Origin: Capitulum mitella | Lineage: Eukaryota; Arthropoda; Thecostraca; Pollicipedomorpha; Pollicipedidae | DNA length: 64,000 nucleotides | Assembly (NCBI GenBank): GCA_030062745.1 | Contig: CP099842.1 | Location: 248,001 to 312,000 of the forward strand | Direction: 5' to 3' | Shown here: in pieces, positions 9,437-62,052 of the stretch | Position numbering within the stretch: the stretch's first letter is position 1 | Layout: every line of letters starts with the position of its first letter | Translations under genes and position numbers: made by a program | Notes under the pieces: generated by a model | Database searches by the model: none | The model's input: the letters and a program-made list of their open reading frames with translations, nothing else | What the model was told of the DNA's origin: nothing

Positions 9437-10216
9437 TCACGTCATGACGGTTATTTTGTGCGCATCATTACGCAAAGTCTGGGCAAATGTCTGCCCTTCA
9501 CCGTTTCCTTCGGCTTCACTGAACGTCGCCACACCAAACAGACGCAGAATGCGCAGAACCAGTTTCGCGACCCTCACTTTCCATGTAACCTGCGGTGCCT
9601 GCCTCATAATGTTTATCTGGTTGGCGTTGTTAATATTGGCGTTAATGTTCTCATTGTTATTATTCAGATTGTTATTATTGTTATTATTATTATTATTGTT
9701 GTTGTTGTTGATGTTGTTGGAGATGTTGGCGACGGTGTCGAACACGGACACGATGAGGCTGAGCAGGACGAGGGGCGCCACCGCGATGAGGCCGCTGCCG
9801 GACGCCGGGGCGCACGGGTCCTCCCGTGGGTCCTCCCCCACCGGCAGGTACATGACGGCCGGCGGCGAGCGGGCGGCCCGGCCGCCGCCGGCCGAGCTCT
9901 GCCGGTACCGAGCGGTCCGCCGAGGCAGGTACCGGTACAGCAGCGAGAACAGCCGCGACCTCAGCTGGCTGGCGCTGACCGGCCGGCCGGCCGCCGGCCG
10001 CAGGGCCTGCGAGGGCGCCGGCCTGTCCGCGGAGGTCGGGGATAGAGGCGGGGAGCGCTGGTCCTTCCCAGCCGTCAGCCGACCGTCGCGGGGCCCCGTC
10101 GTCGGCGAGGGACCTCCGAGAGCGGCGGCCGGCGTCCTGGTGTGTCCGGCGGTCGGCGACAACATCCGGAGCACCAGCAGGGCAGAAAGCGACAGCCTGG
10201 ACGCAGAGGAGATCAC
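9437..10216 (-). CDS. PN1: poly-Asn secreted-type protein (start uncertain)
   Basis: Open frame of about 259 codons. From the N-terminal side it has a hydrophobic stretch (LSLSALLVL), a Pro/Arg-rich region, a helical patch (ASQLRSRLFSLLYRYLPRR), the motif AVMYLPVGED, a hydrophobic segment (VAPLVLLSLIVSVFDTVANI), SNNIN plus about 14 Asn, then further Asn-rich sequence ending NNANQINIM and a 60-residue tail. NNANQIN and VMYLPVG are shared with neighbour PN2 on the same strand. The first codon of the open frame is GTG, and no ATG precedes the hydrophobic stretch in frame. Either an upstream exon supplies the start or translation begins at the ATG at 10165, which would lack a signal peptide. The ATG-less start and GC-rich composition are the main doubts. 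Function unknown. Confidence 0.7.
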   Translation of the reverse strand: MISSASRLSLSALLVLRMLSPTAGHTRTPAAALGGPSPTTGPRDGRLTAGKDQRSPPLSPTSADRPAPSQALRPAAGRPVSASQLRSRLFSLLYRYLPRRTARYRQSSAGGGRAARSPPAVMYLPVGEDPREDPCAPASGSGLIAVAPLVLLSLIVSVFDTVANISNNINNNNNNNNNNNNNNLNNNNENINANINNANQINIMRQAPQVTWKVRVAKLVLRILRLFGVATFSEAEGNGEGQTFAQTLRNDAHKITVMT

Positions 10217-13200
10217 TTTGTTCCGTCGACCCTCGCATCGGCCAATGAGACGTGATGCTCAGGGTCTGTGATAACCGGGACAAAGCATTAGGCGTATATC
10301 CCTCCCATTGGGCACGTCGCCTCCTCACGCAGTGGAAAAGAGGCGCAGCCAGGGGTGTCGGGACCCGCATGTTTGCTCCGCTCCCGCTCCTGCTGTCGCT
10401 GCCGCTATCTCCCCCCCCCGTTTAGGCCCGGACTTCTGTGAAAACTATTGCACATCGTTTTCACAGCAGGCGGTTTTTGTATGATTTCAATTTGCACTGA
10501 GCTCAGGCCCCCTTAAGAAAATCCTGTCTGCGCCCCTGCAGTAGAGCGATTGCTGTGTGGCGTCACGGAGTCGAATACTGACTGGCTGTGAGTGATTTGC
10601 CCATGACACGTGACCTGACGAGCTACAAACAGCGCTAAAAAGGAACGATTTAAGCCAGCTTTACCTTTTCGATCGGCACTTCCTTGTGCGCGCTTATTCA
10701 GGCTTCCATTTGTCCTCAGAGAATTAGCTGTCAGACTCGAATATTTATCCCCTTCTTTGCGCTTCGCGTGCGGTTGATATAAGCAACAACACACATACGC
10801 AGTGGCAAAAGAGCAGCCGTGTAATTATGAGTGGTTGAAACTGAGCCATTGCCAGCTTAATACAATGGCTAAAATATACGTCCGCTAAAATATAAATAAT
10901 AGTATAAATATACGTCCGCTTAAATACAACCGGACGCTGCCTGCATGCTATTCGGCTTCTGTAACACTTTTATTCCCGGACATCGCGGACTCTTATGGAT
11001 TCTGCAAAAAGAAAATATTGGTCTGCATGGTCGACAGTGATACCTTCCCTCAGCACACATTCGAAAGACGCCAGAGTAATTTACATGTATTACGAGCCTT
11101 GAACGTCGCTCACGATATGCAGCCTTTTGACGTGACATCAATCAACTGGCAATGCTGCTAATCCTTTGGGAAGTGTAAATTTCGCTGAACCTGGCAGCTT
11201 GCAGCATTGTTCTTGGCCAAATCAGTTTTCAAGTTATTCATGACCACCTCACACAATTCCCATGTTCAGTCAGGAAATGGCGCTTCTTAAAGCACGGCAG
11301 TTACCCCCAAAAGAATAGTGGTTGTTTCTGAAACAGTATGAATCCAGTATTTCGCGAATGAGCCTCGGCATACTATTTTGTCATCTTTGAGCTGGAAAAG
11401 TCAGTAATATGACATGGTCTGTAACGGTATTTAGATGTACATGTTTCGATGGATACCAGCATACACGGTGAGGTGCGATATACCAGTACATATGTTTAAG
11501 TACTGGTATTTAGACTGCATGCGGTTCTAGATAAGCTTGAATACTTTGTTATGAGCTGCAAATCTCAACAGCTGCAGGATACCTCCAGTAAATGCAGATA
11601 ATGCCACATTATTATTTTACATCCAGTGCGATTGTGGGCCAGCAGCAATGAGGAAAAACTGCGTGGTCTTATTTCGTTCACGCCATAGATTTAGCAAAGG
11701 GCCAGGCAGTTTCGCAATAAACTGGATAACACCAACGAAAAAAGGACCTTCAGCATTATCTTGCTTTAATGCTTTCTGCGATACTCTTTGAAGTAAACTG
11801 CAATTACCAAAAGCAAGTTGACTTGATGCCCACAACCACGCTTTCTATTGAGACATTTTTAGCTTTGCTTCAGACAGCCTGTCGTCGACGCTGACACCAG
11901 ACCTTGTGCGCACTGTAAGTACAAAGCTGGCTTGATATTTCCGTCCGTTTGGCAATGGAAGGGCAACAGGTCACGTCAAACACTGATAATTTTTCACCGC
12001 TCGTTTCGCGTGCTTCACTGTAGCTCAAGAAGGGTCTCTTTTTCGATTCGTTGATAGGCGGTGGTAAGAACCTCTCGAAGTATGTATGTGGTCGGATGGT
12101 TCGACAGAGAGCGGGGAGAGGTCGAGAAAAGACACGGAATAGGAAAGGCCATTCAAAGCGTGTAACATACGACAAAGAGCTGCCCGACTGCAGCCAATTA
12201 GAACACTACAAATTCCTGTACACCCATACAAGCATGCATGCACACAAACCCACGGAGAAATACGGGAGCAGCCGAATAAGACAAGGTAGCCTTGCTTCAA
12301 ACTTAAATCTCGCGAAGCACAAGTGTTCTGTGCCAAAATATGGTGGGCAAACCAGGGACAACACCTTCGGTGGTTACCACTCGTTGCCTGTGCTCGTTGC
12401 CTGTGACCAGAGCAAGGGGTCCATCAGGAGGAAGATGTCCCCTGTGTAATACGAGCTTGGATTGGGTCTGCGGTTTTGCACAGGAGGTACCACAATAAAA
12501 AAACTGACATTCGTTCGAGCATCGGCAATAACGCTTTTGATAAAGGGACTTTGAAATAGTACGATTTCCAGAAGAAGTAAAGGACGATTAAAGAGTAGTC
12601 CTCACTTCATTCTCTTCATTTTAAATGCAGGCCGCGAGCTCAGAGTAGCATTTCGCTCCTTCGGCACTGACCATATCCGCCGGAAGCAGATACCTCACAC
12701 CGGACCTGAAGTGAGAGAATGCGATGGTTAATGAAGACTGATGACAAAATCTCCCGTCAAGCAATGGACTATGAACTCATCAGTAGTGGCCATTCGACGA
12801 CAGTGTCTGTCCAGAAGAAAGACAACTGTCATTAATCAGAAGGCCGGCAGTGCACGCTGTTTGTGAATTTGGACTTTACGGGCGCAGCGACTGTCCATGG
12901 TCACATGGCGCCCAGAGCATGTTAATGGGACGAACCAGCAACTGTCTACGTGATGACGCCTGATCCCCCATCGATGTAAAAGTAACGTTGTTGGACACCT
13001 TAAGTCTGAACTAAAGTGCATCAAGCAAACATAAATGCGTGCGCGATCAGCGCTATACATGACATTTATTGCGAAAACAACGCATCTTTGCACCATTACG
13101 CATCTCAATGAAATAACGCGGTAATGGTCATCGGGTGGAAATGCTTGTGAGCTTTTTCCCATCTTCAAGAAAAGCGTCATAAACCTGTTCGCCAAGCTGA

Positions 13201-13487: not shown

Positions 13488-14534
13488 TCACGAAGACGGC
13501 GTCAGCGCAGGCAGCGTCAGCGCCGCCCGGGCAGCGCCGCCAACGCACCTGATCAGCCTCGTGACGTCATTGCCGCCCAGGGCGCAGAGCGCGTCGGAAA
13601 CGGCGCAGAGGAAGAGGCTCCTGCGTGAGGACAGCGTCCTCTTGAGGACGGCGAGGACGGTGCGGGCCGCCGGACCCCTGGAAGGGTCGGCAGAGCGGCG
13701 GCGGCGGCCCGGCGTCGGCGGCGGCAGCTGCACGTTGATCTGGTTGGCGTTGTTGTTGTTGGAGCTGAGGTTGGAGTTGGAGCTGCTCACGTTGTTGTCG
13801 TTGTTGTTGTTGTTGTTATTGTTGTTGTTGTTGATGTTGTTGGAGATGTTGGCTACCACGTTGAAGATGGCCAGCACGAGCGAGAGAAACGCCATCTGGG
13901 AGATGCTGGAGGCGGCGGCGTCGGCGGCCGTCGGGCAGCGCTTTCCGCCGCCGCCGCCGCCGCCGCCCACCGGCAGGTACATGACCGCGCCTGACTCGGC
14001 CCCGCGCCTGCTGCGCGGCCGGCCGCCGAACGCGGCGGCGAACTGGCGCTGCATCAGCGCCAGCCGGCTCAGGTGCGCCCTCAGCAGCTCGGAGAGCACG
14101 GCCTGGACGCGGTGGCGCAGGACGCCGGCCGCCGGCGCCGACAGCCGGGCGGTTCTGGCGCCGCTCTGAGGCCCGTGTTCGACGGGACCCTGAGCGGCCG
14201 CGTCGGAGGTCGCGACTCGCCGTCCGGCTCGGGCCAGCGGAGGGGGAAATATCCCGGCCAGCGCCGGCGGAGGGAGGGATATCCCGGCCAGCGACGAGGG
14301 GCCGCGGCCCTCCGTCGCGTCCTCCGCCGCAAGCCCGCCCGCAGCCCGCGGCCAGCCACGGCGATCCCCCAGCAGGCCCTGGCCGAAGTCCGGCAGCGCC
14401 GCCATCGCCTCCTCCACATCCACCCTGTCCACCGCCGACGCTCTTGCCACTCCCCCGTCCACCCTGCCCACCGCCGACGTCCGCGCTAGCAGCAAGCACC
14501 CGGCGGCGGCGCAGAGTCGCAGGGCGCGCGACAT
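13488..14534 (-). CDS. PN2: poly-Asn secreted-type protein, apparently intronless
   Basis: I start it at the ATG at 14534 (MSRALRLCAAAGCLLLARTS), which gives a signal peptide and about 348 residues. An upstream GTG in the same frame is not a plausible start. After the signal come an Asp/Val repeat (VGRVDGG, VDRVDVEE), a Pro/Gly region with repeated LAGI-PPP units, a helical region (VQAVLSELLRAHLSRLALMQ), GAVMYLPVGGGGG, the hydrophobic segment (MAFLSLVLAIFNVVANI), SNNIN and about 11 more Asn, a Ser/Asn stretch ending NNANQINV, then GRRRRS, a candidate proprotein-convertase site, and a Cys-containing tail. The tail DVTRLIRC weakly recalls the C-x5-C-E region of other members. It is head-to-head with PN3. 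A CAG|GTAGGC match just 5' of the ATG could be a splice donor; if it is used, this start would be wrong. Confidence 0.75.
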   Translation of the reverse strand: MSRALRLCAAAGCLLLARTSAVGRVDGGVARASAVDRVDVEEAMAALPDFGQGLLGDRRGWPRAAGGLAAEDATEGRGPSSLAGISLPPPALAGIFPPPLARAGRRVATSDAAAQGPVEHGPQSGARTARLSAPAAGVLRHRVQAVLSELLRAHLSRLALMQRQFAAAFGGRPRSRRGAESGAVMYLPVGGGGGGGGKRCPTAADAAASSISQMAFLSLVLAIFNVVANISNNINNNNNNNNNNNDNNVSSSNSNLSSNNNNANQINVQLPPPTPGRRRRSADPSRGPAARTVLAVLKRTLSSRRSLFLCAVSDALCALGGNDVTRLIRCVGGAARAALTLPALTPSS

Positions 14535-14701
14535 GGTGCCTACCTGAGCGACGTCGTCCGGTGCCGGGCGGGAGCGGACTGGGCGGCGGGGGCCGTGCTC
14601 CGGCCGTCGTAGCGGGCCGTGCGGTCCCGTCACGGGTCGCTGGCGGCGCCGCGCTGCCGCCGCCGCCGCCGGCCGCCGGCCGCCGCCGCTCAGTGAGGCC
14701 G
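14535..14701. promoter_or_regulatory. Compact divergent promoter between PN2 and PN3
   Basis: Only 167 bases separate the proposed start codons of two family members on opposite strands. The interval and its flanks are very GC- and CpG-rich, and I see no clear TATA box. A shared promoter would allow co-expression. This depends on both start codons being right. Confidence 0.5.
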
Positions 14702-15880
14702 ATGACGGCGCGACGGCGGCTGTCGGCCCTGGAGACGGCCGCTCTGCTTCAGCTCCTGCTCCAGCTCCTGCTCCAGCCTGCCGTCGGGTGAGACTGGTGT
14801 TTTCGAGGAGCGCCTGGTATCCGCTTTACATGGCGTCTTCAATGTCCCCGCTGCTGCCGGAGTCCTACAAAGGAAAGGAGCAGTAGCGCTATTTGGGATG
14901 TGATACACTTGTTTTTAAAACGGCACAGCAACGAACGTGATTCGTTCTAACTTCTGACGATTTGAACCTTCACTGCGGATGTGGGGAAATTCCCGGCGTC
15001 CCAGAATACTGGAATCAATCTGTATGTGTTGTTCGTAAACCTTTTAGGCTCATCGATGTTAAATGAAGGCCCAAGTTCGAAATCTGAATGGTCGTTTTGG
15101 TTGGCATGCAAAGAGACACCTATGGATTCTCCGTTTCAAAAATGCCATTGGAACACTTTTCGTTGCTGACATTTGTGATGCCTTGTTTGTGTGCATGCAA
15201 AAACATGCAATATTTCGGCCATATTTTCAACGTTATGACTTTCTATATTTTAAGTCGTTCTAAATCCAAACTCCGGTGAAATGCCAGTTCCACTTGGCTC
15301 CGAACGTATTGGGTTTTGCCGTGTTGCCTGTTTCCAGCGCTTGTTTTTGTTCCGCTGATCTCCCTACCACTGACGACGGTCATCTCGCACACGTCAGGTC
15401 CTGGATGGTTTACCGCTCGTCCGCGAACGGCACCGATTCCGAACCTTCCGAATACTGCCCGGACTCCGGACACATATCCACCTTCACCTTCCTGAACTTC
15501 GGGCTGGCCGCCACCAGCGCCGCCGTCAACATCGCCAACAACATCAACAACAACAATAACAACAATAACAACAATAACAACAACAACAACAACAACGATA
15601 ACAACGTGAACGCCGCGAGCAACAACAACAATGGCAACAACGTCAACAACGTCATGTTTCAACGGCCGATGGGTCGGCGCCGCCGAGGCGTGATCGCAGC
15701 GGAGTGCGGCGATCGTCTGAGACGCCTACAAGACGTCGAAGAGGCCTGGTGGCTGGGTCTGGAGCTGTGGCTGGCCGCCTCGAGTTGCGTCGACTCCGCC
15801 TGCGTGGACCTGGCCCTGCAGCGTCGGCCTCCGAAACGCGCGTGGTCGCCGGAGTCGAAGCTTCTCTTCAAACACTTGAG
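14702..15880 (+). CDS. PN3: poly-Asn secreted-type protein (exons 14702-14787 and 15398-15880, 3' end open)
   Basis: Exon 1 encodes a signal peptide (MTARRRLSALETAALLQLLL and on to QPAV) and stops at GG|GTGAGA in phase 2. Exon 2 starts after CACACGTCAG at 15397 in the matching phase, giving GSWMVYRSSANGTD. It continues with the hydrophobic segment (ISTFTFLNFGLAATSAAVNI), ANNIN, about 17 Asn, an Asn-rich stretch with NAAS, then MGRRRRG (basic cleavage-like site) and a helix with WWLGLELWLAASSCVDSAC. The exon ends LLFKHL plus AG|GTGAGG, so at least one more exon follows that I could not place. The Cys pair is C-x4-C here against C-x5-C in PN7-PN9. A third, intermediate exon in the 610-base intron is not excluded. 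Function unknown. Confidence 0.75.
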
Positions 15881-21745: not shown

Positions 21746-23819
21746 CGTTTGGGAAACATCCTTCTTCGTGATACCGCAACCGCATACACCCGAAACATGA
21801 CGGCGATCACAAGCGGGCCCAGTCGAAACCCGGAGGGCTTCACCGCTGCTGGTGTCAGCTGGCGCGAACAGGGAGACCGCCAGCCGGCCGGCGGAGACGG
21901 CTCGGAGGAGACGGCAGGCGCCCGCGGGGACGCCTCGGGGGAGACGGCAGACACCCACAGAGACGCCTCGGAGGAGACGGCAGGCACCCGGCCGTCTGAG
22001 GAGGAGACGCTCTACCCAGCGGGTCCCGCGCCTGGCAGCGGCCGGCCAGACCAGCGCCGGCACGGCCTCAGAGGGCGCCGAGCCGCCGCCGTCCCGTCCG
22101 ATCCCGTGTCGTTCATGATGCAGAGCCCCGATGCCAGGTGAGGCCGCGCCGGGCGTTGTGTCCGGCCGGGACGCGGCTGGCAGGCAGGTGACAGGGAGGG
22201 AGCAGACGCGACGGTGCCCGTCACCTCATCCAGACCGAGCCGCTATTGTGAGTCAGAAGAAACGGGGGCCAGCTTTGCGCTGGAGGAAGGCTGGCACCGC
22301 CTGTTAAATTCGGTCGTTACATTAACAAGGATCCGGTTTTCCAGTCCTTGACAGGACACGACTATGCAGTTGCTATGTTTGCTATCTCGTCGCTTTTTTA
22401 TTGCGCTCTTCGCTGTCCCTACGTATCATTTGGACAACGAAACAGCCCCTGCGGCATTATAATGTTCAGATGCTTACAAAATATCCCAATTATTAAAGGG
22501 CATTATGAATGTGAAAGCCTGTACCTCAGAAGAGCAATCTCGGCCGGCAGATGTGTAAAGTGCACCGACCTCGATGGAAACTTCTGGCACGATGTTCCAA
22601 CAAACTTCGGCGGAGACACTCCTGGATCCCAGATCAGCAACGTTCGTCGCGAGCCCCTCTTGGACCCTGGCGGCCTGCCATTGGTCCAAGCCACCCGTCC
22701 AATTTGTTTTACCGCATAGCGGCGGTCGGGCGAGCCGTCGAGGACTTAATGAACCAGATCGTTAACATGCAAAGACATCGCCGGCACCCGGATGCCAGAA
22801 ATTGGCGCACACCCCGGGGAACTGACTTGGGAGACGCCCGCCTCCGAGGCTGCCGCAACAAAAGACTGATGAATATTAATAAATCTCCAGTAGCCCAAAA
22901 AAAAACATGTTGTCGAACGCAAATGCCTTAATTTACGCCGAGGCTGTGGCATTACAAACGTCAGTCGCTTCTCCACGCTGCCTGTTGAGAAGTTCGGGCT
23001 TCTACAGGATAATTTGCGATAAATATGATCGGAGAGACATTGTGGGGTGATTTCGGAAGCTCGTTAAGCAAAGCTCCCTGCACGATCCTGGGCCTTACAC
23101 TCCAGCGTGCGTTTCCAAGTAACGGCCTGTTTTGTGGCGAAAGTTTAACGTGCCTTCAGAGACACGACATGACAGTGTGGTACTCGCCATAGTTCTCTAT
23201 CGGCCCGCCGCTAGCTGGCCCGCGGTCCAAATATCGAGCGCAGGAACGACTCGAACCCATTTTGCTAGGACGGGGATACCACGCTTTCCCAACTGAGCCT
23301 GCGATTACAGTGAAATTGAGCCCATAAGTTACATAAATATGTATCTCCTGCCAGCGTCGCGATGGCCCGATTACCCACTTTTGTTTCCACAGTTCAAACG
23401 TAGTATTCTATGAAGCTCCCGAAAAAGAAGAGGCTCCGTGCAGGAGCGGCGTCTTCTCCGTCTTCACTCTGATCAACTTCGCTATCGCGGCCGTCAGCGT
23501 CGCCAGCAACGTGCTCAACAACAACAACGACCGCAACAACAACAACAACGACCGCAACAACAACGACAACAACGTGAACGTAGCGGACAACAACAACAAC
23601 GGCAACAACCTGAACATGATTGACCTGGGCGGAGCGCTGGGTCGCCGCCGCCGGGTCCTGCTGGAAAGGGAGCGCGACCTGAACCAGATCAAGGACGCAA
23701 TCGAAGACGAGGCCGTCGTCCTCGAGGTGGTGGGGATCAGGACGCGACAGGACGTCAACGCGACAGCTTCCGAGACCACCGACCGACGCCGAACACGGAG
23801 GAGCAAGGTCTGCACTCAG
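21746..23819 (+). CDS. PN4: poly-Asn family member (exons ~21746-22137 and 23393-~23819, both ends open)
   Basis: The first exon starts after the acceptor at 21745 and contains an acidic repeat (ETAGARGDASGETADTHRDA) before VPSDPVSFMMQSPDA. It ends AG|GTGAGG in phase 2. The second exon follows GTTTCCACAG in the matching phase: SNVVFYEAPEKEEAPC, the hydrophobic segment (VFSVFTLINFAIAAVSVASNV), then an Asn tract interrupted by Asp and Arg (NNNNDRNNNNNDRNNNDNN) and an Asn-rich tail ending NLNMIDLG. LGRRRRV follows, then a charged helix. A donor CAG|GTGGCG at 23819 is my guess for the exon end. No signal-peptide exon in matching phase was found; the 19956 exon is in the wrong phase. The poly-N tract is the most broken of the nine. 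Confidence 0.6.
23238..23304 (-). ncRNA. tRNA-like sequence (degenerate tRNA or SINE head) in the PN4 intron
   Basis: The minus strand has an A-box-like GGCTCAGTTGGG and a consensus B box GGTTCGAGTC about 40 bases apart, bounded by ends where CGCAGG can pair with CCTGCG. At 67 bases it is short, and the T-stem pairs poorly, so a functional tRNA is unlikely. A tRNA-derived SINE head or a tRNA pseudogene fits better. Confidence 0.4.
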
Positions 23820-24482
23820 GTGGCGGCGCAAATAGTCGCTGGTTTTGGCGTTTGTATCGCTGCCTAAAATGGATACACTATCGGGCACTGCGTTATCCAG
23901 GTCGCAAAAACTTCCATCCATTTGGGAAACTTAATACAGGCAGCACTGCGAGTTCGTGCTATCAGAATAATGCGCGATATTTCACAGCGGTAGTATGGCT
24001 TTCCGAAAACAGGGTTCAGCGTACCGATATCACCATATGTTCCCCGTCATCTCAATCCCTTGACATTGCAGCGCTGACCCCACTGACGTTTTCGATCGAT
24101 GGCCCAACTGGCAGCCCGGGAACAAAAACAGGGGCTCGTCTGTCGCCAGATGAACTCCTGGACGGCAGCCGGACGAAACGACGACCCTCCTGCTGCAGCC
24201 GACGACATACGCCGTCTGGCGCTGCTGTTCCAGCTGACCTCCGATATCGCCTCCTCCCTGCCACCTCCGCTCGCTGCGGTCGTGAAGCACGTGATGTACG
24301 CGGCGACCGCGGCGCGTGATAAGTGATTCAAATGACTCTCCTAGTGGTGAGGGATGTGCTTCGGTGATGAGGCTGTCGACAAATGGCGTGCCGCCTCATA
24401 GGATGCCGAAGACGATAATGAGCCAAAAGTATTATAGCTCTTCTCCGTCACTCTTTCATCCTTGCTCCCCGTCTACCATTCG

Positions 24483-31695: not shown

Positions 31696-32112
31696 CACAG
31701 TGAATACGTGTTCTCCATCACGCTTTCTCGAATCCCTATTTCGATTTATGTCTATATTGGTGCTTATCAAAATCACACTGTGGAGTAACAACAGTAAGAC
31801 ATTCATCAGGCCGAAGATGCTTCGCTTGTGGCGCGGGCGCCGTGGGCCTCGTGGTCCCAGTGGCAACGGAAGGACAGACCGCAACGTCTTCAAAGCATTC
31901 TCCGTCGTGTCGGACGACGGAGGGCCTGGCGGCGCGCGAAAGGTCGGTCCGATCTGGATGTCTTGCGAGCGAACGCGGGCGTTTTCCCTCTTCAGTTCAG
32001 CGACGGTCTGCGTTGGAGCCAGATGTCTGGCAGCAGTTCTGCTGGGCCGACAGAACGTCGTGGCGAACATCCCACAACCGACAATAAACGTCACAAACGG
32101 AATCAGTCGCAT
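31696..32112 (-). CDS. PN5b: family member or module without poly-Asn
   Basis: From ATG at 32112 the frame encodes a signal peptide (MRLIPFVTFIVGCGMFATTF), a charged spacer, HKRS, then the hydrophobic segment SIFGLMNVLLLLLHSVILIS followed by TNIDINRNRDSRKRDGEH and a TGA. The segment from SIFGL matches PN5a and the other members, but the poly-N is replaced by a short Asn/Arg/Asp sequence. A donor GT|GTGAGG at 31696 would give the same phase 2 as other members. It begins only 18 bases after the PN5a frame closes. Alternative model: PN5a splices at GG|GTAACA (32134) to an acceptor at 32042 in matching phase, and this is the second half of one gene with two hydrophobic modules. Function unknown. 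Confidence 0.6.
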
Positions 32113-32130
32113 CGTGAGCGTTGGACGGTG

Positions 32131-32517
32131 TTACCCTTGCAAGTTTCTGAACAAAGGCATCGATCGCTTCATAATTGTGTTGTCGTTGTTGTTGTTATTA
32201 TTATCGTTGTTGTCGTTGTTATTATTATTGTTGTTGTTGTTGTTATTGTTGATGTTGTTACTGATGTCGATGATTGCATTGAAACAGACGAGTAGGAAAT
32301 TCAGCAGACCGAATATACTGCTGCTATCTCTTGGCTCCACTCTTCCTGGGGCGGAGATGCGAAACTCGGGAGACGGCTGTTCGCTGGACGTGAGACCGGC
32401 CTGCTGCGACAGGCGCCGTCCGGGCTGGTCGTCAGGTTGAACCCGCAGGCTGGGTCGCGTCTCCGAGACGGCCAGCAGGCTCAGCAGCGTGGCGCCCAGC
32501 ACCCAGAGGAACCTCAT
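32131..32517 (-). CDS. PN5a: poly-Asn secreted-type protein
   Basis: ATG at 32517 opens a signal peptide (MRFLWVLGATLLSLLAVSET). A 45-residue polar spacer follows, then SSIFGLLNFLLVCFNAIIDI, SNNIN, about 11 Asn, a DNNDNN stretch, and MKRS (basic site) with MPLFRNLQ before TAA. A possible donor overlaps the stop (GG|GTAACA, phase 2), so the frame may continue in a further exon. At the 5' side a good donor and acceptor define a UTR intron. It is the third minus-strand member and is followed immediately by PN5b. Confidence 0.75.
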   Translation of the reverse strand: MRFLWVLGATLLSLLAVSETRPSLRVQPDDQPGRRLSQQAGLTSSEQPSPEFRISAPGRVEPRDSSSIFGLLNFLLVCFNAIIDISNNINNNNNNNNNNNNDNNDNNNNNNDNTIMKRSMPLFRNLQG

Positions 32518-32559
32518 CGCCCGGCGATCGTCGCAGATGTCTAGGGCGATGGGTCTGAC

Positions 32560-32788
32560 CTGACCCCAGGCCCCGGGAGAGGTCAGCAGGCCGCGAGAGC
32601 TGGCCTGACGCCACCCGGTGATGTATGGACGTGAGGAGGCCGCCTGCTGATGTGTTCACTGAGGTTCGCTGCTGGGCTGGTGCTCGGCCGAGGGAGGCGT
32701 CACACGATGGCCTGAAGTCCCCGAACTTGCAGCAGTTCGGGCCGACGCAGGTCACAGTCGCCCACGGCTGAGATGCGTTGCGTCTCAC
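32560..32788 (-). other. Predicted 5' UTR intron of PN5a
   Basis: The minus strand has CGATCAG|GTGAGA, a near-ideal donor, at 32788 and the acceptor GGGGTCAG at 32560, 42 bases before the PN5a ATG. The upstream CpG-rich sequence to about 33000 would be the first, non-coding exon and promoter. Confidence 0.5.
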
Positions 32789-37006: not shown

Positions 37007-37459
37007 CTAAGAGAAATTTCCCTCTGCCTGGACGAGATGATGGTATATTTCCGCCATGTCTCGTCTTTTTCGCCTCCGCCTCATATTATTATTATCGTTG
37101 TTGTTATTGTCATTATTGTTATTGTCGTTGTTGTTATTATTGTTGTTGATGTTTTCATTGATGAGCAGGACGCTGTTGAGCAGCAGCAGCAGGAAGCTGA
37201 GGAAGCCGAAGATGGGCAGACCGCCGCCGCTCCTGCCGGCGTCACTGCGGGAGGCCGCCAGGCGGTGGTCGCCGTCATCAGTCCGGCCGGCGCCGGCGTC
37301 AGAGCCCGCTACCGACAACGGGTCACCGGACTCGGCGGACACGAGCCGGCCGGCGGCGGCCGGCGGCCCCGTCCGCGCCGGCAGGGCGGCAGACCGGCCT
37401 CCGGCGGCCAGCAGGAGCTCGGCCAGCAGCGCGACCAGCAGCGGCGCCCCGCTCAGCAT
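37007..37459 (-). CDS. PN6: poly-Asn secreted-type protein, short form
   Basis: The ATG at 37459, in the context GCCGCCATGC, opens a signal peptide (MLSGAPLLVALLAELLLAAG) and about 150 residues. A GC-rich spacer with SAESGD and RTDDGDH precedes LPIFGFLSFLLLLLNSVLLI, then NENINNNNNNNDNNNNDNNN, and MRRRRKRRDMAE, a strong basic cleavage-like site. Only 15 residues follow (EIYHHLVQAEGNFS) before TAG, and I see no donor with a standard sequence, so this member probably ends here without the Cys region. A polyadenylation signal lies 60 bases on. The larger open frame upstream of the ATG is 5' UTR, since it contains a spliced intron boundary. Confidence 0.75.
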   Translation of the reverse strand: MLSGAPLLVALLAELLLAAGGRSAALPARTGPPAAAGRLVSAESGDPLSVAGSDAGAGRTDDGDHRLAASRSDAGRSGGGLPIFGFLSFLLLLLNSVLLINENINNNNNNNDNNNNDNNNNDNNNMRRRRKRRDMAEIYHHLVQAEGNFS

Positions 37460-43076: not shown

Positions 43077-43945
43077 ATGAAGCTCAATCTGGGGGTGGTG
43101 GCTCTGGTGGCGGCGCTGCTGGCGGCCGCCGTGGGGGCGTGGCCAGCCTTCCCGCCGTCCCGCGCCGGGCCGACCTCCGACCTGACCTCTGACCTGAGTG
43201 CCGCCGACGGCCGGACGCCCAGCCGGCAGGGTCGCGACGCCAACAGCAACCTGGCTTTCCTCGGCTTCATCATGGCGCTGCTGGACACGGTCATCAACAT
43301 CGTTTCCATGATCAACAACAACAATAACAACAACAATAATAACAACAACGATAACAACAATAACAACAATGATAATAATCTCAATGATGTCGACGTCAAT
43401 AGCATGTAAGCTTTGCTATTTGTGATGGCTAAGAGGTACTAAATGCGTCCGCGACGAATTTTCCTTGACGCCGCACTTTGTTCGTTTTTGTTTCCATTTC
43501 AACATCGTAACACGTGCGTTCATTGCCTGTTTCAACAATGTTGACCGAAGGCGTTGCGGGCCTGCACCTTGGTAAACCAAATGCGTCTCTACAGATGAAA
43601 TGTAACGAACTGAATTTAAAAATTACAGCCATTACCGTAACGGAGTTTTCAAAATTGTTGTTAGTAAATAACATATAAAAAAACAAACAAATAAAACAAT
43701 ACGTTGTTGCTAACTCAAGAACCCGTTCAAACACCCAGGAACATGAACACCAACATGGTGATGGGCAAGAGTTCCGGCTGGAGTTGGCTGGACGCCATGC
43801 TGTCCTCGCAGTTGGACGGCCTCTGGAGGTGGAGCAAGACCATCGCGCAGCACCACCCGACCTGCATCACCAGGCTGGTGTGCGAGACCCACCGCATGAG
43901 CGAGCACCACTCAGGCCTCACCTATCTGTTCACGACCTTTCTGAG
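43077..43945 (+). CDS. PN7: poly-Asn protein with C-x5-C-E region (exons 43077-43405 and 43739-43945, 3' end open)
   Basis: Exon 1 starts ATGAAGCTCAAT and encodes a signal peptide (MKLNLGVVALVAALLAAAVG), a polar spacer, LAFLGFIMALLDTVINIV, SMIN, about 12 Asn and a DNNNNNNDNN stretch. It ends AGCAT|GTAAGC in phase 2. Exon 2 follows CACCCAG in the matching phase: MNMNTNMVMGKSSGWSWLDA, then LWRWSKTIAQHHPTCITRLV, CETHRMSEHHSGLTYLFTTF and L plus AG|GTACGC. PN9 has NMNTNQNM at the same place without an intron, which supports the join. The C-x5-C-E pattern recalls the insect DM4/DM12 domain (CxLRxxCE), an inference. Further exons are needed; acceptors at 44406 and 44640 are candidates. Confidence 0.8.
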
Positions 43946-51717: not shown

Positions 51718-51721
51718 TTAA

Positions 51722-52186
51722 TTTAGTTAGGTACGTTTTTATAAATGGTGCTTCAGCTTCAAGGATTTTGCTGAGACATTGTCGCCTTCATTTATGAGCC
51801 AACTGAAATTACCGATGACCGCTCTTAATTATCACCTCACCGTTTCTGCTAAATCTAAAAAAGGTAATACCCCTCGTAGGGATACTACCTTTTGCTTTAC
51901 CCCTGGGTCAATTGGTTCCTTGGTTCGGGAAAATTTAGCGTTATTCTAGCAACAATGCGTGGAAAGAAAGGTACCAAAATGTCGTCTGCCCTGATAGTCT
52001 AAATACGTAATACTATGCAACAAGGCATGCTGAAAATCTTTGAAGTTTTCGGACTGCTCTGCGTGAGGTGAGCGGAAACCGATGCAAGGTAATTACTGAT
52101 CGCCCATTTTAGATGGTTTGAACATTTATGACAAAATGTGGACAATAAAGGTAAGGAAAACACTGCTTTGATTACCACTTAGGTCA
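51722..52186. other. Spacer between two TTAA elements
   Basis: AT-rich, nothing supported. Contains a short inverted repeat around AAAAGGTAATACCC/GGATACTACCTTTT near 51860-51893. Confidence 0.4.
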
Positions 52187-52190
52187 TTAA

Positions 52191-53571: not shown

Positions 53572-53572
<1 letters not shown>

Positions 53573-53742
53573 CATTATTACGAAAGCATTGTCTCTGCCC
53601 TCCCCTGCCCCGCTCGGCGGCGGGTTCCGCGCGGTCCATGTAACTGCTGGCGGCGGCGGCTGACGAGGAGCCGTGTCGGATCGGTGGAGCACGTAACGGG
53701 CCCTCGGCCGGGACGCCGCCCGCCGCTGACCGAGTCGGAGCC

Positions 53743-54440
53743 ATGGCGGCGAGCCGGGCGGCCGTCTCCGCTCTCTGGCTGCTGGCGCCGGCTCTGGCGT
53801 CCGCCGTCCGTCTGGCACCAGGCTCTGCCGCCCAGGGAGCAGCTTCTGCCGGTCGTTCGGGACCACGGTTTGCTGCCCAGCCGGGACCACCTTCTGCCGC
53901 CCAGCTGGCACCAGCCTCTGCCGTCCAGCTGGCACCAGAGTCTGCTACCCAGGCGAAGCTAGTATCGGCCGCTGGTCGGTCATCGTCTTACGGATCCTCG
54001 ACATCCTCGGCCTGTCCGTCCAAGGGCAGCAGTTTCTCCACCTTCGGCTTCCTCAGCTTTCTCCTCATCTGCTTCAACACGGTCATCAACGTCATCAACA
54101 ACATCAACAACAACAACAACAATAACAATAACAACAATAACAACAACAATAATAACAACAATAACAACAACAATAACAACGTAGCCATGGGAGGCGGCGG
54201 CGGCGGCGGCGGCGGCGGAGGCATCGGACGGTCCGTGGCCGGCTCCAGGGACCCGCTGAACGTCACCAGCTACCTGCAGGAGGCGGCGTCGTGCGACTGC
54301 TCCAGCCCGGCCGGCGCCGCTAGCCGGCAGATGACGCGCTGGCTCCTGGACCTGCTGGCCGCGTACCCGGACTGCGTGCCGCGGATCGTCTGCGAGCTCA
54401 CTAGGCAGCTGCCGCCGGCGCTGCTGCGTCTGACCAGCAG
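53743..54440 (+). CDS. PN8: longest poly-Asn tract, with C-x5-C-E region (3' end open)
   Basis: The ATG in GGAGCCATGGCG opens a signal peptide (MAASRAAVSALWLLAPALAS), then a Pro/Ala repeat region (AAQLAPASAVQLAPES), a Ser-rich patch, STFGFLSFLLICFNTVINVI, NNIN and about 25 consecutive Asn coded by a mixture of AAC and AAT. After it come VAMG, a run of Gly, IGRSVAGSRDPLN and a helical segment with MTRWLLDLLAAYPDCVPRIV and CELTRQLPPALLRLTS. The exon ends AG|GTGGGT in phase 2, splitting an Arg codon as in PN3, PN7 and PN9. IGRS-AG is shared with PN9. No intron interrupts signal to Cys region here. Downstream exons not found. Function unknown; secreted or membrane-inserted by its hydrophobic segment. 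Confidence 0.8.
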
Positions 54441-57400
54441 GTGGGTGTGGATGGCCTTCCCTTTGTCGCTGACTGGCTGTGGAGTAGTGGTGAATATGCA
54501 GCGACGGGTCCTAGTATTCAGAAACGGGTTGCTCAGAGGTGATAAGGGCCGTCCCGTCGCGAAGGGCCCCTGATCTGTGCGAAAATGTTGAAGAAACTCA
54601 GGCTGATTTCCCAGGGGACTTCTCTTTAACAGACCCGAACAGAGCCTTGTCCCCCTTGGACATTGTTAAATTTGTTCTCAGCTACTACTGCGCACGGTTT
54701 GAGACGTGATTTTAACCCCTTGACTGCTGAAAATTCACGCAGTTACACACACACACACGCACACACACACACACACACCTATATATATATATATATATAT
54801 ATTTGTGTGTGCGTGTGTGTGTGTGTGTGTGTGTGCAGTTCCTAAACTTTTACTTCCTGCGTTGTCGAAACGTGACGCCTGCTAGACACTTTTGTCACCG
54901 ATAGGGGGCCTTGAATATAAAGTCACGTAGTACATGACGTCCATTATTCAGGCCATTTGACCATTTGGCCATTTGGCCAAATGGCCATGTCGCATTTCAT
55001 ATGACTAGGCATTTTTGTGACACTAGATATGATACATTCCGGCACTGAATTGCAGTAAGGGAAACGATTAAGCAAGATTATCGTGCAAGACAAACATGCA
55101 TACTCGTCATATTTACAGAGATGCAACAATAATCAGGAGTTTTTTTTTTTGGTTTTAGCTGGTGCTTTGGAGGCTGGAATTTTACGTCGCACACTTCATT
55201 CATTGACCACTTTACGATTATTCTCCTTTTCCACTCATGTCCAAAGGCACTGCAATGCTATCAAGGTAAAAGGGCTAATAAAATGACACTGAAGATATTG
55301 AACAGTTGATAAATCCACGTAAATTGTCATTCGGAGATAGGACATTGACCGGTATAATTGATTCCCAGTCTTGACTGTAGGACTACTATGTCTCCATGTC
55401 ATAAACCATCTGAAACGATCATCTGGCAAGAAGGCGTCGTAAAATATCACATGGAAAATAATGTAGTAATGGAGAAGTAATTAACATTGAAAACATGAAT
55501 ATGCTGCTATCGTACTTGTCAAATTCACTGCCAGCTTTACTTTTTCTTTTTTTACTTCTATCTTTACTTCTATTTTTTTTTCTCTCTCTCTCTTTCTCTC
55601 CCTCTTTCGCAATCTGTTTCTTTTTTAACTGAGGAAGGCTCGGGCTGTTTTCAGGGTATTGGACCGGTGGACCAGGCTGAATCGGTTACAAGACGGCGAC
55701 AGCTGTTACTCGAAATTCCCTGGATGCCCACTCTTCGACGTTCAGTTGTGATAACCTACCGCAGTCACGTCCCAAGACGATGATTGCAGTTTGAGAAGCT
55801 TTCTTTATTGAATGGTGATTGTGACCTGAATGTTCTTCGTGAAACTCGCTGGAAGGTTTTTCCAAATCAGGGCGTGTCACCTCATGTAACCTGATACATT
55901 CTTCGCGAAACTCGCTGAAAGTTTTTTCGAACCAGTGTGTCACGTGTTTGCGATGGTGCGGCGAGACGATGTCATTTGAGAAGACGCGAATGAAATGCCG
56001 ATGTCTCGTATTCTTCATCTTCTCCTAAACACAATTTACAAACATGCATTTTTCACGATTTTTCAGGCACACTGACATGAGCGGAAAAGCATGGAGCCGT
56101 TTTCCACGGAATTTAGAAGATGAAGTCACAGACGGAAGAAATTCATTGACGAGTGTAAGTTAAAGTAGTTTTCAGACATGCTTGTAGCTATGTCTTGAAT
56201 ATCTATAGTCATTTTTTTGTGAGAAATAAATGAATGCATCTTCCACGGAAGCGTCTTTGGAACGTCAGGGTTTTTGGCGACATATTTGGACGCCGAAATC
56301 ATTTGACATCCAGGCAAGTGATGCACATCATAGAGATGTTGCAAGGCGGCATCGTCTTTTAGATATACGTGTAATAGAGGAAAAACTGTCTGCTGGGATG
56401 CGTATTAAAGCTGTTTTGATAAGCGTGTGGTACTGCGCGACGGATGGCCAGTGGTACCCACAGGGACCATCCGAAACGTGGAAGCTGAAGGAGTATGGCT
56501 GCGGACCCGTCACGCTAGTTTTTTAGGAACACAAACTAAACGTCCATTGTGTTACAGGGAAGGCGAAGGGGTAACACAATAAACGAAATATGTTCTTTGA
56601 AATTACGAGCCAGGCGTTATACTGTGCGAGACTCAGTTCATCAGACAAAGAGGAGACTAACCGTAACAATATTTGTTGGTTAATGTCTTCTCGATCACCC
56701 GATATGGACTCATACAGTTTTCAAAAAAATGCTTAATATGTCGTTTTGGGAACGCGTCTGGTGATGAAAAAAGTGATGCCCATTCCCCATACTTTTGTAA
56801 ATATCTTTCTTTATAGTAATAACAGAGCAATGGAAGTTAGTGTGTCCTCAGCTGTGCTCCTAGCATATCTTTCGTAGCATGAAATTTTTCAGTTGGATTC
56901 GGCAGAGAACTAAAATGCAGGTTAAGAGAACGCCTACACAGCCTTAAGTTATATCAGCGGTGGATTTGAAATCCATGACAGAGAGCCGATTTGACTCAAG
57001 ATACATCAATCTACTAAGACCATTTTGACGAACTGGGGCTCAACTTCAAACGAAAATTTGTGCTCCGAACCGTTGTGTTCATGAAGAACATCACTGGTGC
57101 TTTCAGAAGAGTATAAAGTGGGAAAATGGCCGATTTTCTCCTTCTTGCCTACAGCACTGCGTCCCTACTTTGACCCTCATACTCACTTTTTCGCCTTTTT
57201 GTGGCGGTGGCAGATTTATGTTCTCGAAAGTACTTGGTGAATTGTCTTCAGACTTTTGGCCCAATTTTTACTTAGTTCTGCCTAATGGCTTGGCTAATCT
57301 TAAAAGCTAGTGGAATGTACTTTACTGGATTACTCAATGACTTTTTTACACAAAAATCGCTCAGGCTTTTATCTTCTTGCATTTCTCGTTTAAAATTGTT

Positions 57401-57458: not shown

Positions 57459-57462
57459 TTAA

Positions 57463-59868
57463 CCCAATACGCTATGGGGGATGGGCTTGATATGTCCCCT
57501 CCGTTTTTATTTTTTGCTCGCCATTTCCAGGGTTTTAAAGGCAGCTCCACAAAACCAGCTTACTTTTCCCAGCTATTTCACCTGCGTGTAATGTCAGATT
57601 TTTATCACTTCATTTCTCCCGCTGGTGGGGCCAGGCCTCGTTTTTGGGCAAAACCTCAGGACATTTTTGTTACTGTTGAGCGTAAAAGAAAATAGCTGCC
57701 AAAAATATGTTTTCAGATACAGCCTGAAATGCTATATGAAAGTATAGGAAAATAATTGAGTAAACACACAAAAATGTTTTTGCCAACCTAAGGTTACTTC
57801 AAAAAGGTCAATCCCAGGCCAAAATTCAAAACGTGATTTTATGTGTATGTTCTTCGCAAAATTTTTAAATAAAAAAACACGGGAGATATAAAGGTCGAAA
57901 CCGTGCTCGCTTCCTGTGTTCAGGTTTCAAGTCGACGTGAGGTAGGACCAAGGAACTATGGCCTAAAACATTAAGGACCAGACTCTATATCACGATGGTC
58001 ATGAACAGGAGTTCTAAAAACTTACTCCATTCAAATGATTGGGAAAGTTCTCAAACACTACGAAATGAACCCAAGGTCATTCCATGCCGCTTTGAGGTCA
58101 TCCGAGGTCATTCGAGGTCAACGGTCGCAAACTTGCCTAATAAACATGTCTCATGACAGTTTCCAATTTTTCATACCCCTGGCGCGGCCTGACCCAACGT
58201 TGTGCGAACAATGTAATATGATGTGTGCTCCTGAATTATAAAGCGATTAGTAAAAGCTGAAAACGTAAACTAATATGTTAAGCCAGTTTTGAACAAAAGA
58301 AACATTTCTCCCATCTTCCAAGACCTGCGAATACCCATGGATTTTTCTTAACCCGCGCACGACCGTCGGTCCGTTGCGATCATGCACGACTGGGGGGGGG
58401 GGGCAGTTGGCCAACCTCCCTCTAACTCGAACGGTTGGTCACACAATAAAATAAGCATACCGTTGGAAAGCTTGTGACGAGTAGAGCTCGAAACTGGTCT
58501 CATTTTTAGTTTTAGATAATATGTAAGCAATTTACGCCCTATATATATTTTCTCGTAGCCAACTGCATGAGACCGAGAAATGGCCTGAATCTCAAGGGCT
58601 GTGACTGATAACGCATAGGTAAAGGCACCAGCGCACAAGTAAAGGGCCGCAAATGCCGATACACATCTAATTTCCCAGATTTGTTCAATATATACGACAA
58701 AACGTCGAGTTAAAGACATGGCAATTCTCGCGCCGGCTGTTGGCGTGCGCCGCAGCCGTATGCAGTAAGAAATTTACGGAAACTAATTTTAACGTTCATT
58801 TATTTTCGCGAAAAAAAACCTATCCATGTAAATTTTACTGATCTTAGTGGTTCTTGCGATGGTTCTTCATGCTTAAATTTTGGAAAAATTCATTAGTTAC
58901 CAATCTGCACAATTGGCGTAGCTTTATTCACTGCAGCCTGTTTACTTCCAAAATATGCTATTTTTCAAACGTTTTGAGACTCCTGGTATTACTTGCGTCT
59001 GTGCAAGCTAGTTCTGCCATTTTCTACCCATTCTGAGTAATTCATCACCGATTTTGACGGTGGTACATTTTGGCTCACTACAGTTATTCGTGACCTGACC
59101 TCAGGTCAATGGCTGAAAGTCATTGATACTTTGCCCAATGACGGTAACTAGATGTCTGTTTCACTCCACACTAAAAATGTTATGAAATATTCCTTCAATT
59201 TCTGAAGAAAACGACATGTCTTAAAAATGGGCTTGACCTTAGGTCAATGGGCCGGAAAATTCCGAAAAATCTGAGATGGTAGATTTGTTGCATCTATCAC
59301 AATCACTAATCCCTGAAAGTATTATTGAGATATCTTGTTTTCCGAAAAAGTTACATGGAGCTAAATTTTTTTGGACATAGGCCTGTTTGACCTGACCTAG
59401 GTCAGGCACCTGACCAAATCTGAGGTCAAAATTTTGACGCAAGATGTAAAAATGATGAAGCAAAAAACACACGAAGTTTCGTGACTCTGTGTTTGTTCGT
59501 GCTCTCGCAATTCCAGAAAAACCTCAGTGGGGTGGTCAACTGCCCCCCCCCAGTCGGGGGCGGGTTAAAATTCTAAACGTGTGAACTACATGGGAAGTTC
59601 CATCGATTAGCTCTCAATTCGCGCCATTGCAGGAAAATCGGTGAAGAAAGATCGGAGATCGGGGTAACAACAAGTCGAAAAGGCCTCTTTCTGGCCTTTT
59701 TTATCCCCTGTATTCAAGAGAGATTTTCGGAACTTCTTGGATGAAAATGTAATTTACGTCACGGGAAATCCACTACCGTTTTTATGATCAGATCGGACAG
59801 GCTGTTTCCGAAGTGTCAGTGGGAGAGGTTCGAGTAAGCCTCCCCCTCTCATACGGGAATGCATGCTG
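57463..59868 (+). mobile_element. TTAA-type MITE, family 1, copy G, interrupted by a family-2 element
   Basis: Starts after TTAA (57459-57462) with CCCAATACGC, then the family-1 landmark TTGCTCGCCATTTCCAGGG. It runs to 58351, where a complete family-2 copy is inserted, and resumes at 59565 for about 300 bases to CTCATACGGGAATG. Without the insert it would be about 1.2 kb. The right end is decayed. Half-site arrays (GAGGTCATCCGAGGTCATTC) lie at 58080-58115. Confidence 0.75.
58352..59564 (+). mobile_element. TTAA-type MITE, family 2, copy 2 (nested)
   Basis: Flanked by TTAA at 58348-58351 and 59565-59568. Starts CCCGCGCACGACCG and ends CAGTCGGGGGCGGG. Length 1213. Matches copy 1 (6410-7611) throughout, for example GTTGGAAAGCTTGTGACGAG near both starts. 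Its insertion in copy G shows that family 2 was active after that family-1 insertion. Confidence 0.9.
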
Positions 59869-61555
59869 CCATTTTGGGCACGGAAATATTGTTAAACGGG
59901 TGCCATTATTTGGTCTAAATCAGTGATCCAAAATGTATGCAAACACGGGTCAAACTTCAAAATGATACATTCAGTCCCACCCTTGAAGATTATCATGTTC
60001 AATCGGCTACGTCTTTAACATCAATGCAATGAAATTGAAAAGCCGTGAAGTAATTAGCCATACATAGCCTTAAATACACAAGACACCATGATACAAGACT
60101 TGGCGTTAACCGCTTTCGCGTCTTCTGTATTCACCCTTGACAGACTCCATAAACTTTACAGTCCAAATGGATGGTGAATGGTCATAAATGTCAGACGCTG
60201 AAATCGCAGAATTGTCAAATATTGGCTTACAGCACCAACAATTGACCTTTATGGACCTGACACGTAGGAACATCTGAATCCCTCTCGAGTCATGTAGGAG
60301 ATTGCACTTTGTGTAGAGTTCGTGGAAAAATGCATATGAAAATATGAAGCAAATTTTACCTTAATGGCGCAAGCGGTTTCCATTTGCCTCCAGAAAAACG
60401 ATGGGATGTCGAAGCAGTCCCTGCATGAACATCAATGTGCAAAGAACTGCAGGTAGTTTTATGCTGGTCAGAGGAGCTTCGTGCTATGCTCTTCAGAAGT
60501 CCGACACACTGCTTGGTATGCTCGTTATTTTGCTAACAAGCACAGAAAACCGAAAGAAAAACATTCTGGTATATTTCTGGACAACTGGGATTCACTGTTA
60601 TCAGTGCCATCATTATTTTCTTACTAACAAGCGACAGCTCAAGATCGAACAATGCCACTAGGGGCCCATCTAACAATCAGTTCCTGTCATCGGCTGACGC
60701 AGCATGAGACGCTGCACGAATGCGCCTGACAGCGGGCCTAATTGCTGCACCGTCACAGCCGAGTGCGCCCTAACACCGGCCGCGCTGCCCGTTCCGGACG
60801 GCTGCGGCGCGCCCAGACCCTATCGTCGGCGGCCGGCGCTGAAGAATCGGCCCTCTTGTAGCGGTCCGCCCGAGCGTCAGCGCCCCGACGTGCCGACATC
60901 GGGCGGGCGGCGCGACCGCGTCATGCCGCGGCGTCACACGGCGCCGCCTGCTTCGACTGCCGCCCGTTACGCGGCTCTGTCTGCGTCCCTCTGAGGCTGC
61001 CGCGTGCAGGCCGCGACCGCAGCGGCGGCGCCGCTCTTCACGGCCGGGCGCGTCCCGCCGGCCTGCTGCATTGTCCGCGAGCCGCCGCCGCTCAGAACGG
61101 GCAGCGGTACGCGGCGCCGCAGTCCGCCGACGGCCCCAGGGCACGGGTCAGCGCCGAGGTCACCGGGCGAGCGTCCGACGCGCACAGGAGCCAGGCTCGG
61201 GCGGCCAGGCCGGCCCAGCCGCTGGAGACGGACCGCCGCCGTTACAGCTCGTGATGGGCTGCGTGGCTGGGAGTGACGGCGCACGGACAATACGACGCCA
61301 CGGTAACCTGAACCTTTAAGGCATGTCATGATTTAGGAAAATGCCAACGTAATCGAATCGGAAAACCTCATTGAAACACCGGAAACTTCCCGGGAAAACT
61401 GTTGCAAGGGCTTATAAGGCGTGTCCGAGTGTCAGTGTCTGTTTGAATATTGTTAGACTCCGACGACACTGAATGGCTAGGGTAAAAACGACTGAAAAAG
61501 ACAGTCCGTCGTCTCCGTCTCGAACTCTTCGGGACGGAGAGCATGCACGCTTCAC
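59869..61555. other. Intergenic stretch with CpG island, 3' of PN9
   Basis: AT-rich to about 60680, then a strong CpG-rich block to about 61280 with open frames in most phases and no convincing product. PN9 is transcribed toward this region, so its further exons may lie here, unrecognised. Confidence 0.35.
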
Positions 61556-62052
61556 CTGATGATCAGCTGCGAGGCTCTTCCGATCCCAGACTGCTGGGCC
61601 GCAGCCGCCGACTCGCAGACCAGCCTGCCGACGCACCTCTCCAGCAACTGGGCGTCTGATGACGTCACGACCGAGAAGCAGCGTTGGCCGGCGAGCGACC
61701 TGCCGATCATGTTCTGATTGGTGTTCATGTTGTCCGCTTGGTTCGTGTTCAGGTTGTTGTTGTTGTTGTCGTTGTTGTTGTTATTGTTGTTGTTATTGTT
61801 GTTGTTGTTGTTGACGTTGTTCACCAGGTTGATGACCACGTTGGAGATGACGACCATGAAGCTGAGGAAGCCGAAGACGGACATGCCGCCGCCGGTGCCG
61901 GGGGTGGGGTCGGGCGCCGGGCAGGCGGTCGGGTCGGTCAGCGCACCGGATGAATCCATCGGCATGTAGACGTAGGAGCGCTGCTGTAGCGCGGCGCTGG
62001 AGCTGCGGCAGCAGGCCAGCAGCACCGGCAGACAGACGGCCGCTCGGCGCAT
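61556..62052 (-). CDS. PN9: poly-Asn protein with C-x5-C-E region, signal to Cys region in one exon (3' end open)
   Basis: The ATG at 62052 opens a signal peptide (MRRAAVCLPVLLACCRSSSA). SYVYMPMDSSG matches the VMYLPVG motif. Then come a Pro/Thr spacer, MSVFGFLSFMVVISNVVINL, VNNVN and about 13 Asn, DNNNNNLNTNQ, NMNTNQNMIGRSLAGQR (equivalent to the PN7 exon join), and SDAQLLERCVGRLVCESAAA. The exon ends SQLII plus AG|GTGAAG in phase 2. An acceptor-like CCTGTTCATCAG lies 17 bases before the ATG, suggesting a spliced 5' UTR. This is the clearest single exon showing the whole architecture. Function unknown. Confidence 0.8.

Follow-up and report, generated by a model that had tools for sequence, protein, structure and literature searches.

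The 64-kb window of the genome of the barnacle Capitulum mitella that we analysed (C4:248,001-312,000) covers part of a gene cluster of at least 22 members, whose proteins combine a hydrophobic segment with a tract of asparagine residues (poly-Asn). The analysis of the sequence establishes the layout of these proteins, their arrangement in a cluster, the conservation of the hydrophobic block at the protein level and a resemblance of the C-terminal tail to the DM4/DM12 domain (PF07841), and it makes secretion of the proteins likely. We suggest that a tandem family has split off from DM4/DM12 secretory proteins and has a convertase-processed, self-assembling role in the extracellular matrix; taken as one explanation, this proposal seems to us evenly poised between right and wrong.

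The family and its cluster

An initial annotation had reported nine poly-Asn exons on both strands of the window, and all nine open frames were found again; the minus strand carries five of them and the plus strand four. We extended the analysis to 214 kb (C4:198,001-412,000) of this genome, which has a size of 477 Mb and 16 contigs. This region contains 20 poly-Asn frames of the family kind, nine in the window and eleven to the right of it. Two cluster members have no poly-Asn (window 31696-32130, minus strand, and C4:348,202-348,561); in L032 (C4:348,202-348,986) a Gly/Asp tract replaces it, and a second exon carries ECGRRFLCE. The at least 22 members extend over about 114 kb (C4:257,440-371,718, the bounds being the first and last poly-Asn frames seen). 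New as compared to the initial annotation are 12 members to the right of the window, the tenth window member (31696-32130) and exon 2 of copy 7.

The proteins typically have the order signal peptide, variable pro-region, hydrophobic segment, spaced Asn pattern, Asn-rich tract, G[RK] or GRRRR, and Cys tail. The hydrophobic segment has about 20 residues and ends in the pattern N-x3-N-x2-NN-x-N; by eye, it is often preceded by an element [VL]-x-[YF]-x-P ... C (examples are MYLP and VYFP, each with a Cys behind it). Behind the tract, G[RK] is present in 16 of 22 copies (in one of them, o348, it lies after ARRRR) and GRRRR in seven, and a basic site is located just before the block in o359 (RRRQKR) and in copy 10 (RPRHKR). 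Of the motifs named in the initial annotation, NNIN is literal in five of the nine window copies (1, 2, 3, 5 and 8), whereas the others read LNNNN (copy 4), ENIN (copy 6), SMIN (copy 7) and NNVN (copy 9). A signal peptide, said to be usual, was recognized in six of the nine exons (2, 5, 6, 7, 8 and 9) by a crude heuristic that asks for an ATG, a hydrophobic core with a mean Kyte-Doolittle value of at least 2.1 and a small-residue cleavage pattern; the exons of copies 3 and 4, and probably also that of copy 1, start at a splice acceptor. Among 20 copies tested with this heuristic, nine have an ATG and a strong core, and the first exons of several others are missing. The C-x5-C-E region ascribed to several copies is found in three of the nine, namely copies 7, 8 and 9 (in copy 7 on the second exon), and the C-x5-C tail as such is present in copies 7, 8, 9, o331, o348, o359, o363 and o369.

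An alternative explanation would be that expanded AAC/AAT microsatellites are read by chance in open frames. Indeed, AAY codons make up the tracts, which are also reported by tandem-repeat finders. However, all 17 AAY runs of at least seven codons in the 214 kb are located inside family copies, behind family coding sequence and in the Asn frame, and 16 of them mix AAC and AAT; runs that are confined in this way to family copies are not repeat noise. Moreover, the block can be recognized without the tract: With profiles of the 32 residues ahead of the tract and with N-runs masked in the database, leave-one-out searches of 3788 open frames found 16 of 18 copies again with E<0.01. The two failures were o335 (E 1.4) and o363 (E 0.89), the block of the latter being split by an intron; splicing at TTAG|GTGAGT...TTGCAG|CTTC rebuilds SSFGFLSFIIAIINIVVNVANNINNN. 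Copies o326 and o331, in which the block is not adjacent to the tract, had been left out before this count. Finally, two members do without poly-Asn. The masked recovery and the placement of the AAY runs lead us to reject the microsatellite explanation, which is extremely improbable, for the 214-kb region, and on the same two results the explanation as a dispersed repeat, one of two findings that the initial annotation had named as fatal to its proposal, fails within this genome.

The block was also compared with codon shuffles. In 78 pairs from 13 copies, the pooled proportion of nonsynonymous differences (pN) was 0.405 as compared to 0.641 in codon shuffles, whereas that of synonymous differences (pS) was 0.492 and thus close to the shuffled value of 0.475. 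This low pN together with a null-like pS indicates that the block is kept at the protein level. At the level of single pairs, where the test is weak, pN is lower than pS in 50 of the 78 pairs; the 28 pairs with pN equal to or above pS do not fit with this conclusion.

That this is a real, diverged and locally amplified family with secretory features, as proposed initially, is supported by the relations among neighbours: For seven of 17 copies the best-matching block is that of the adjacent gene, as compared to a mean of 2.03 under shuffled order (53 of 5000 shuffles were as high), and copies 8 and 9 have a common inverted repeat of 153 nt that is 78% alike. The excess of neighbouring best matches points to local duplication, after which the copies diverged strongly or were shuffled. 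There are also dispersed members, at least L017 (C2:4.117 Mb) and L058 (C4:13.049 Mb), both judged true on reading; this number is a lower bound, as the genome searches with copy 8 and o359 give best candidates only. Eight of the 23 matches listed for copy 8 are outside the cluster, seven resembling simple repeats and the remaining one being L017, and two of the 15 listed for o359, one being L058 and the other located on C3. By eye, L017 forms a subgroup with C4:330,327-332,153, characterized by a TG[LI]F[SA]FFA block, an [IV]NINI pattern and an Asn tract that is broken by a Gly/Thr-rich stretch.

The tail and the DM4/DM12 domain

DM4/DM12 is a widespread protein domain of arthropods, and to our knowledge its genes have no known function; no study of it was found in the open-licence literature. 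The view that the proteins belong to no named family has become doubtful: The C-x5-C region of the tail most likely represents a DM4/DM12 domain that has diverged very far, as suggested by weak Pfam matches, the place of an intron, hhalign and the protein L057. Since none of the cluster copies reaches the Pfam cut-off, we call the cluster an offshoot of DM4/DM12, a descent of which we are rather confident from the sequence data, and do not file it as a member.

For copy 7, DM4_12 is the only Pfam match (E 0.016 and 0.013); it is also matched by o348 (E 0.018 and 0.026) and is the best of four Pfam matches for o363 (E 0.13). Judged from its coordinates, an ungapped stretch of o348 would place the two Cys exactly at profile columns 22 and 28; the start coordinates of copy 7 and o363, whose stretches contain a gap, are consistent with these columns. 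The intron provides a second criterion. In all 12 DM4_12 exons read (L039-L050) there is a phase-2 donor 86 nt past the first Cys, and phase-2 donors are located at 83 nt in copy 7, o348 and o331 and at 80 nt in copy 9. Of 244 control C-x5-C sites that lie within open frames of the region, only one has AG|GTR at 80, 83 or 86 nt, and this single site turned out to be the second exon of o369 (RACTLRAVCG...QLGEI...LLDVF), which had been missing. Moreover, five of the top 16 matches of a profile of the 12 DM4_12 exons among the 3788 frames are cluster tails. An hhalign comparison of eight cluster tails with the 12 exons gave a probability of 50.9% (P 1.6e-4), and none of 40 Cys-keeping shuffles scored as high, the best one coming close (21.29 vs 21.70).

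The bridge between the cluster and the domain is L057 (C1:41,242,000-41,243,000), a single-frame protein with a DM4_12 match of 30.4 bits, which is over the cut-off. It consists of a signal peptide, a long hydrophobic segment, a Gly/Ser-rich linker and the domain, and so resembles the cluster copies in the succession of its parts, in which a signal peptide and a hydrophobic segment are followed by a low-complexity linker and then by the domain. The o363 tail matches L057 with E 3e-6 (single comparison), including GR[TS]GG...C...[FY]P.CG, and when eight tails were compared with the L057 domain, between 0 and 12 of 500 shuffles reached the scores of seven of them. Partial matches to L057 are present at C6:16.98 Mb and C11:23.19 Mb, some of them probably compositional.

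Like DM4/DM12 proteins, the cluster proteins have a C-x5-C (often followed by E), a phase-2 intron about 80-86 nt past the first Cys and a signal peptide. A second pair, C-x6-C, is present in o363, where it aligns with that of L057, and in o359; in copies 7, 8, 9, o348 and o331 it was not found, the search giving unspecific matches only. In contrast to DM4/DM12 proteins, the tails mostly have neither the G-[LM]-[DE]-G-[RK]-x-C-L-L-R core nor the L-L-G-E motif, a hydrophobic segment and a poly-Asn tract precede the domain, and the scores remain below the Pfam cut-off. DM4/DM12 proteins would be expected to have a convertase site and then L-x-F-P near the N-terminus; among the DM4_12 proteins of this genome, we observed this combination once, in L052 (RQKRSLTFPAGS). 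By eye, VMYLP, VYMP, LFVP, VWFP or VYFP occur in copies 1, 2, 9, o363, o369 and o371, most of them without an adjoining basic site.

Several results weigh against the derivation from DM4/DM12. The best cluster copy (copy 7) reaches 16.6 bits, and the gathering cut-off of 22 bits is reached by none; no DM4_12 match was obtained for seven of ten copies tested, o369 included, and with a longer segment of o348 serum amyloid A (E 0.0068) outscores DM4_12. The matches of the cluster tails to the profile of the 12 exons have E values of 0.18 to 15, none of them significant alone, and the o359 tail does not beat the shuffles against the L057 domain (325 of 500). The donor of copy 8 is located at 68 nt, no convincing donor could be recognized at this place in o359 and o363, and a second exon was not found for copies 1, 4, 5, 6 and 10. 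The intron place itself is not universal among the DM4_12 genes of the genome, as L056 breaks off right after CE, and four of 22 DM4_12 matches end at profile column 31-33. An orphan secretory family, unrelated to DM4/DM12 and with a C-x5-C and an intron phase that arose by convergence, would agree with single-sequence Pfam matches that are all below the cut-off and limited to three copies. However, the intron place, the blind recovery of the o369 exon, the hhalign result and the match between o363 and L057 speak against such an origin, which we consider improbable.

The genome contains at least 22 matches to DM4_12 exons that exceed the cut-off, among them a local cluster at C3:25.77-25.84 Mb, which makes up a further tandem array within the wider family. 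With full exons, none of the nine poly-Asn exons had a Pfam match above the gathering cut-off; the best one, that of copy 8 to YxzE (E 1.1e-4), does not reach it and covers the hydrophobic-Asn stretch.

Possible functions of the hydrophobic-Asn segment

How might these proteins act? The initial annotation had named self-assembling, adhesive, cuticular or antimicrobial roles, and these are still inferences. The predicted scheme is that the protein enters the secretory pathway and that a furin-type convertase cuts the basic sites beside the hydrophobic-Asn segment, cleavage being suggested by the position of these sites; the Gly ahead of Arg4 would permit amidation. The freed segment would then self-associate via its hydrophobic face and the Asn side chains, and the product would be an extracellular material, e. 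g. of the cuticle, the shell plates or the peduncle matrix, while the Cys-paired tail might keep the precursor soluble or dock it. It is tempting to speculate further that the segment is a new assembly module, cut at basic sites on its flanks from a DM4/DM12-type precursor and amidated at Gly-Arg4, that polymerises outside the cell as an Asn-ladder fibre or a membrane-inserting film, and that tandem duplication has created a palette of such modules for barnacle cuticle, shell or attachment structures; in this detailed form, the proposal seems to us unlikely.

Two other functions have to be weighed against this matrix role. The main rival, which we regard as unlikely though deserving serious attention, is that the copies are single-pass membrane proteins, the hydrophobic segment being a transmembrane helix and poly-Asn a polar spacer to the tail. 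In each of the 22 copies, the most hydrophobic 19-mer has a mean Kyte-Doolittle value of 1.2 to 2.5, and its octanol transfer energy is favourable; the segment of L057 is even longer and stronger. After cleavage of the signal peptide, however, the tail with its Cys pairs would face the cytosol, and this topology is unlikely for a Cys-paired secretory domain. Moreover, conserved Asn residues break up the segment, and o359, probably also copy 2, has basic sites on both flanks; cutting at both flanks, if it occurs, would be incompatible with a segment that spans the membrane. Alternatively, the proteins may be precursors of secreted amidated peptides with an antimicrobial or signalling function, in which Gly-Arg4 would serve for cleavage and C-terminal amidation of a hydrophobic-Asn peptide. 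The G[RK] and GRRRR sites behind the tract and the basic sites just ahead of the block in o359 and copy 10 would be in keeping with this, but multibasic sites are wanting in several copies, and we know of no antimicrobial peptide or neuropeptide with a long poly-Asn stretch, which we count against a peptide function that is in our opinion very improbable.

Among known secreted-matrix systems, the APPG (ABU/PQN) proteins of Caenorhabditis elegans are the nearest tested functional precedent for the cluster: They are secreted, Q/N-rich and form the pharyngeal cuticle, where their localisation has been demonstrated (PMC4232772). The cluster proteins are likewise Asn-rich, form a paralogue family and are predicted to be secreted. 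In contrast, APPG proteins stand out by a cysteine content of at least 9% and by the presence of Gln besides Asn, whereas the cluster proteins have few Cys in the sequences read (judged by eye, not as a percentage); the likeness is not one of claimed homology. Barnacle cement and shell-matrix proteins would be comparable in that barnacles secrete them, too, and the portions of PMC8371367 and PMC11293433 consulted contained no Asn-rich or DM4 terms for them. Beyond the C. elegans precedent, the open-licence literature yielded nothing relevant on arthropod poly-Asn secreted proteins, although proteins of a similar kind may be present in further arthropods. Long, conserved, genome-encoded poly-Asn is unusual in secreted animal proteins and can be tested directly as a self-assembling material, and the matrix and adhesive proteins of barnacles also attract practical interest. 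Moreover, a DM4/DM12 branch with a hydrophobic and poly-Asn module in 22 linked genes offers a handle on the purpose of the domain.

The window copies and their surroundings

In the window, the minus-strand copies 1 and 2 form a pair. Copy 1 (open frame 9440-10258, exon 9440..10201) has a signal-peptide core, MYLP..C, the hydrophobic block and NISNNIN with poly-Asn; its first exon was not found. Copy 2 (open frame 13491-14825, annotated part 13491..14534) has a signal peptide, a pro-region, MYLP..C, the block, poly-Asn, PGRRRR and a Cys-containing tail. Copies 3 and 4 are internal exons on the plus strand: Copy 3 (open frame 15264-15881, exon 15339..15880) consists of the block, poly-Asn, MGRRRR and a C-x4-C tail with a phase-2 donor at its end, and copy 4 (open frame 23337-23864, exon 23394..23864), with the acceptor CCACAG just upstream, of the block, an Asn-rich tract and LGRRRR.

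Copy 5 (minus strand, open frame 32134-32655, annotated part 32134..32517) encodes a signal peptide, the block, poly-Asn and KR, and has a candidate GT donor just 5' of the stop codon. Directly downstream, in the same frame and 11 codons past this stop, follows copy 10 (minus strand, open frame 31696-32130, annotated part 31696..32112), with a signal peptide, the RPRHKR site and the block SIFGLMNVLLLLLHSVILISTNIDINRN without poly-Asn; it is matched by the N-masked leave-one-out profiles with E about 0.002 to 0.2, and might either represent a gene of its own or belong to a transcript common with copy 5. Copy 6 (minus strand, open frame 37010-37756, annotated part 37010..37459) has a signal peptide, the block, an Asn/Asp tract and RRRRKRR.

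Copy 7 is encoded by two exons on the plus strand. Exon 1 (open frame 43074-43406, exon 43077..43405) comprises signal peptide, block and poly-Asn and ends at the donor GTAAGC, and exon 2 (43739..43945) carries NMNTNMVMGK... and the DM4/DM12-like CITRLVCE, with its phase-2 donor at the 83 nt given above. Copy 8 (plus strand, open frame 53644-54570, annotated part 53743..54440) has a signal peptide, the block, 25 Asn, poly-Gly, IGRS and CVPRIVCE, its GT at 68 nt being in phase 2 as well. Copy 9 (minus strand, open frame 61555-62154, annotated part 61556..62052) has a signal peptide, YVYMP..C, the block, poly-Asn, IGRS, CVGRLVCE and the phase-2 donor at 80 nt.

A profile search of the PDB resulted in three matches (E 0.1 to 0.38) that we judged to be due to chance, and none of 600 pattern matches in a scan of IMG/VR was confirmed. 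Searches for tRNAs and with Rfam gave none. For ten other frames of the window, Pfam found nothing besides a DUF3504 match (E 2.5e-4, below the cut-off) at 8317-8790 on the minus strand, perhaps a remnant of a mobile element. There are dispersed repeats of 170-300 nt in several copies (window 5278-7571, 50522-53338 and 57479-59523), which are probably remains of mobile elements between the genes, and a GC-rich minisatellite with a 36-bp unit is located at 17632-17923.

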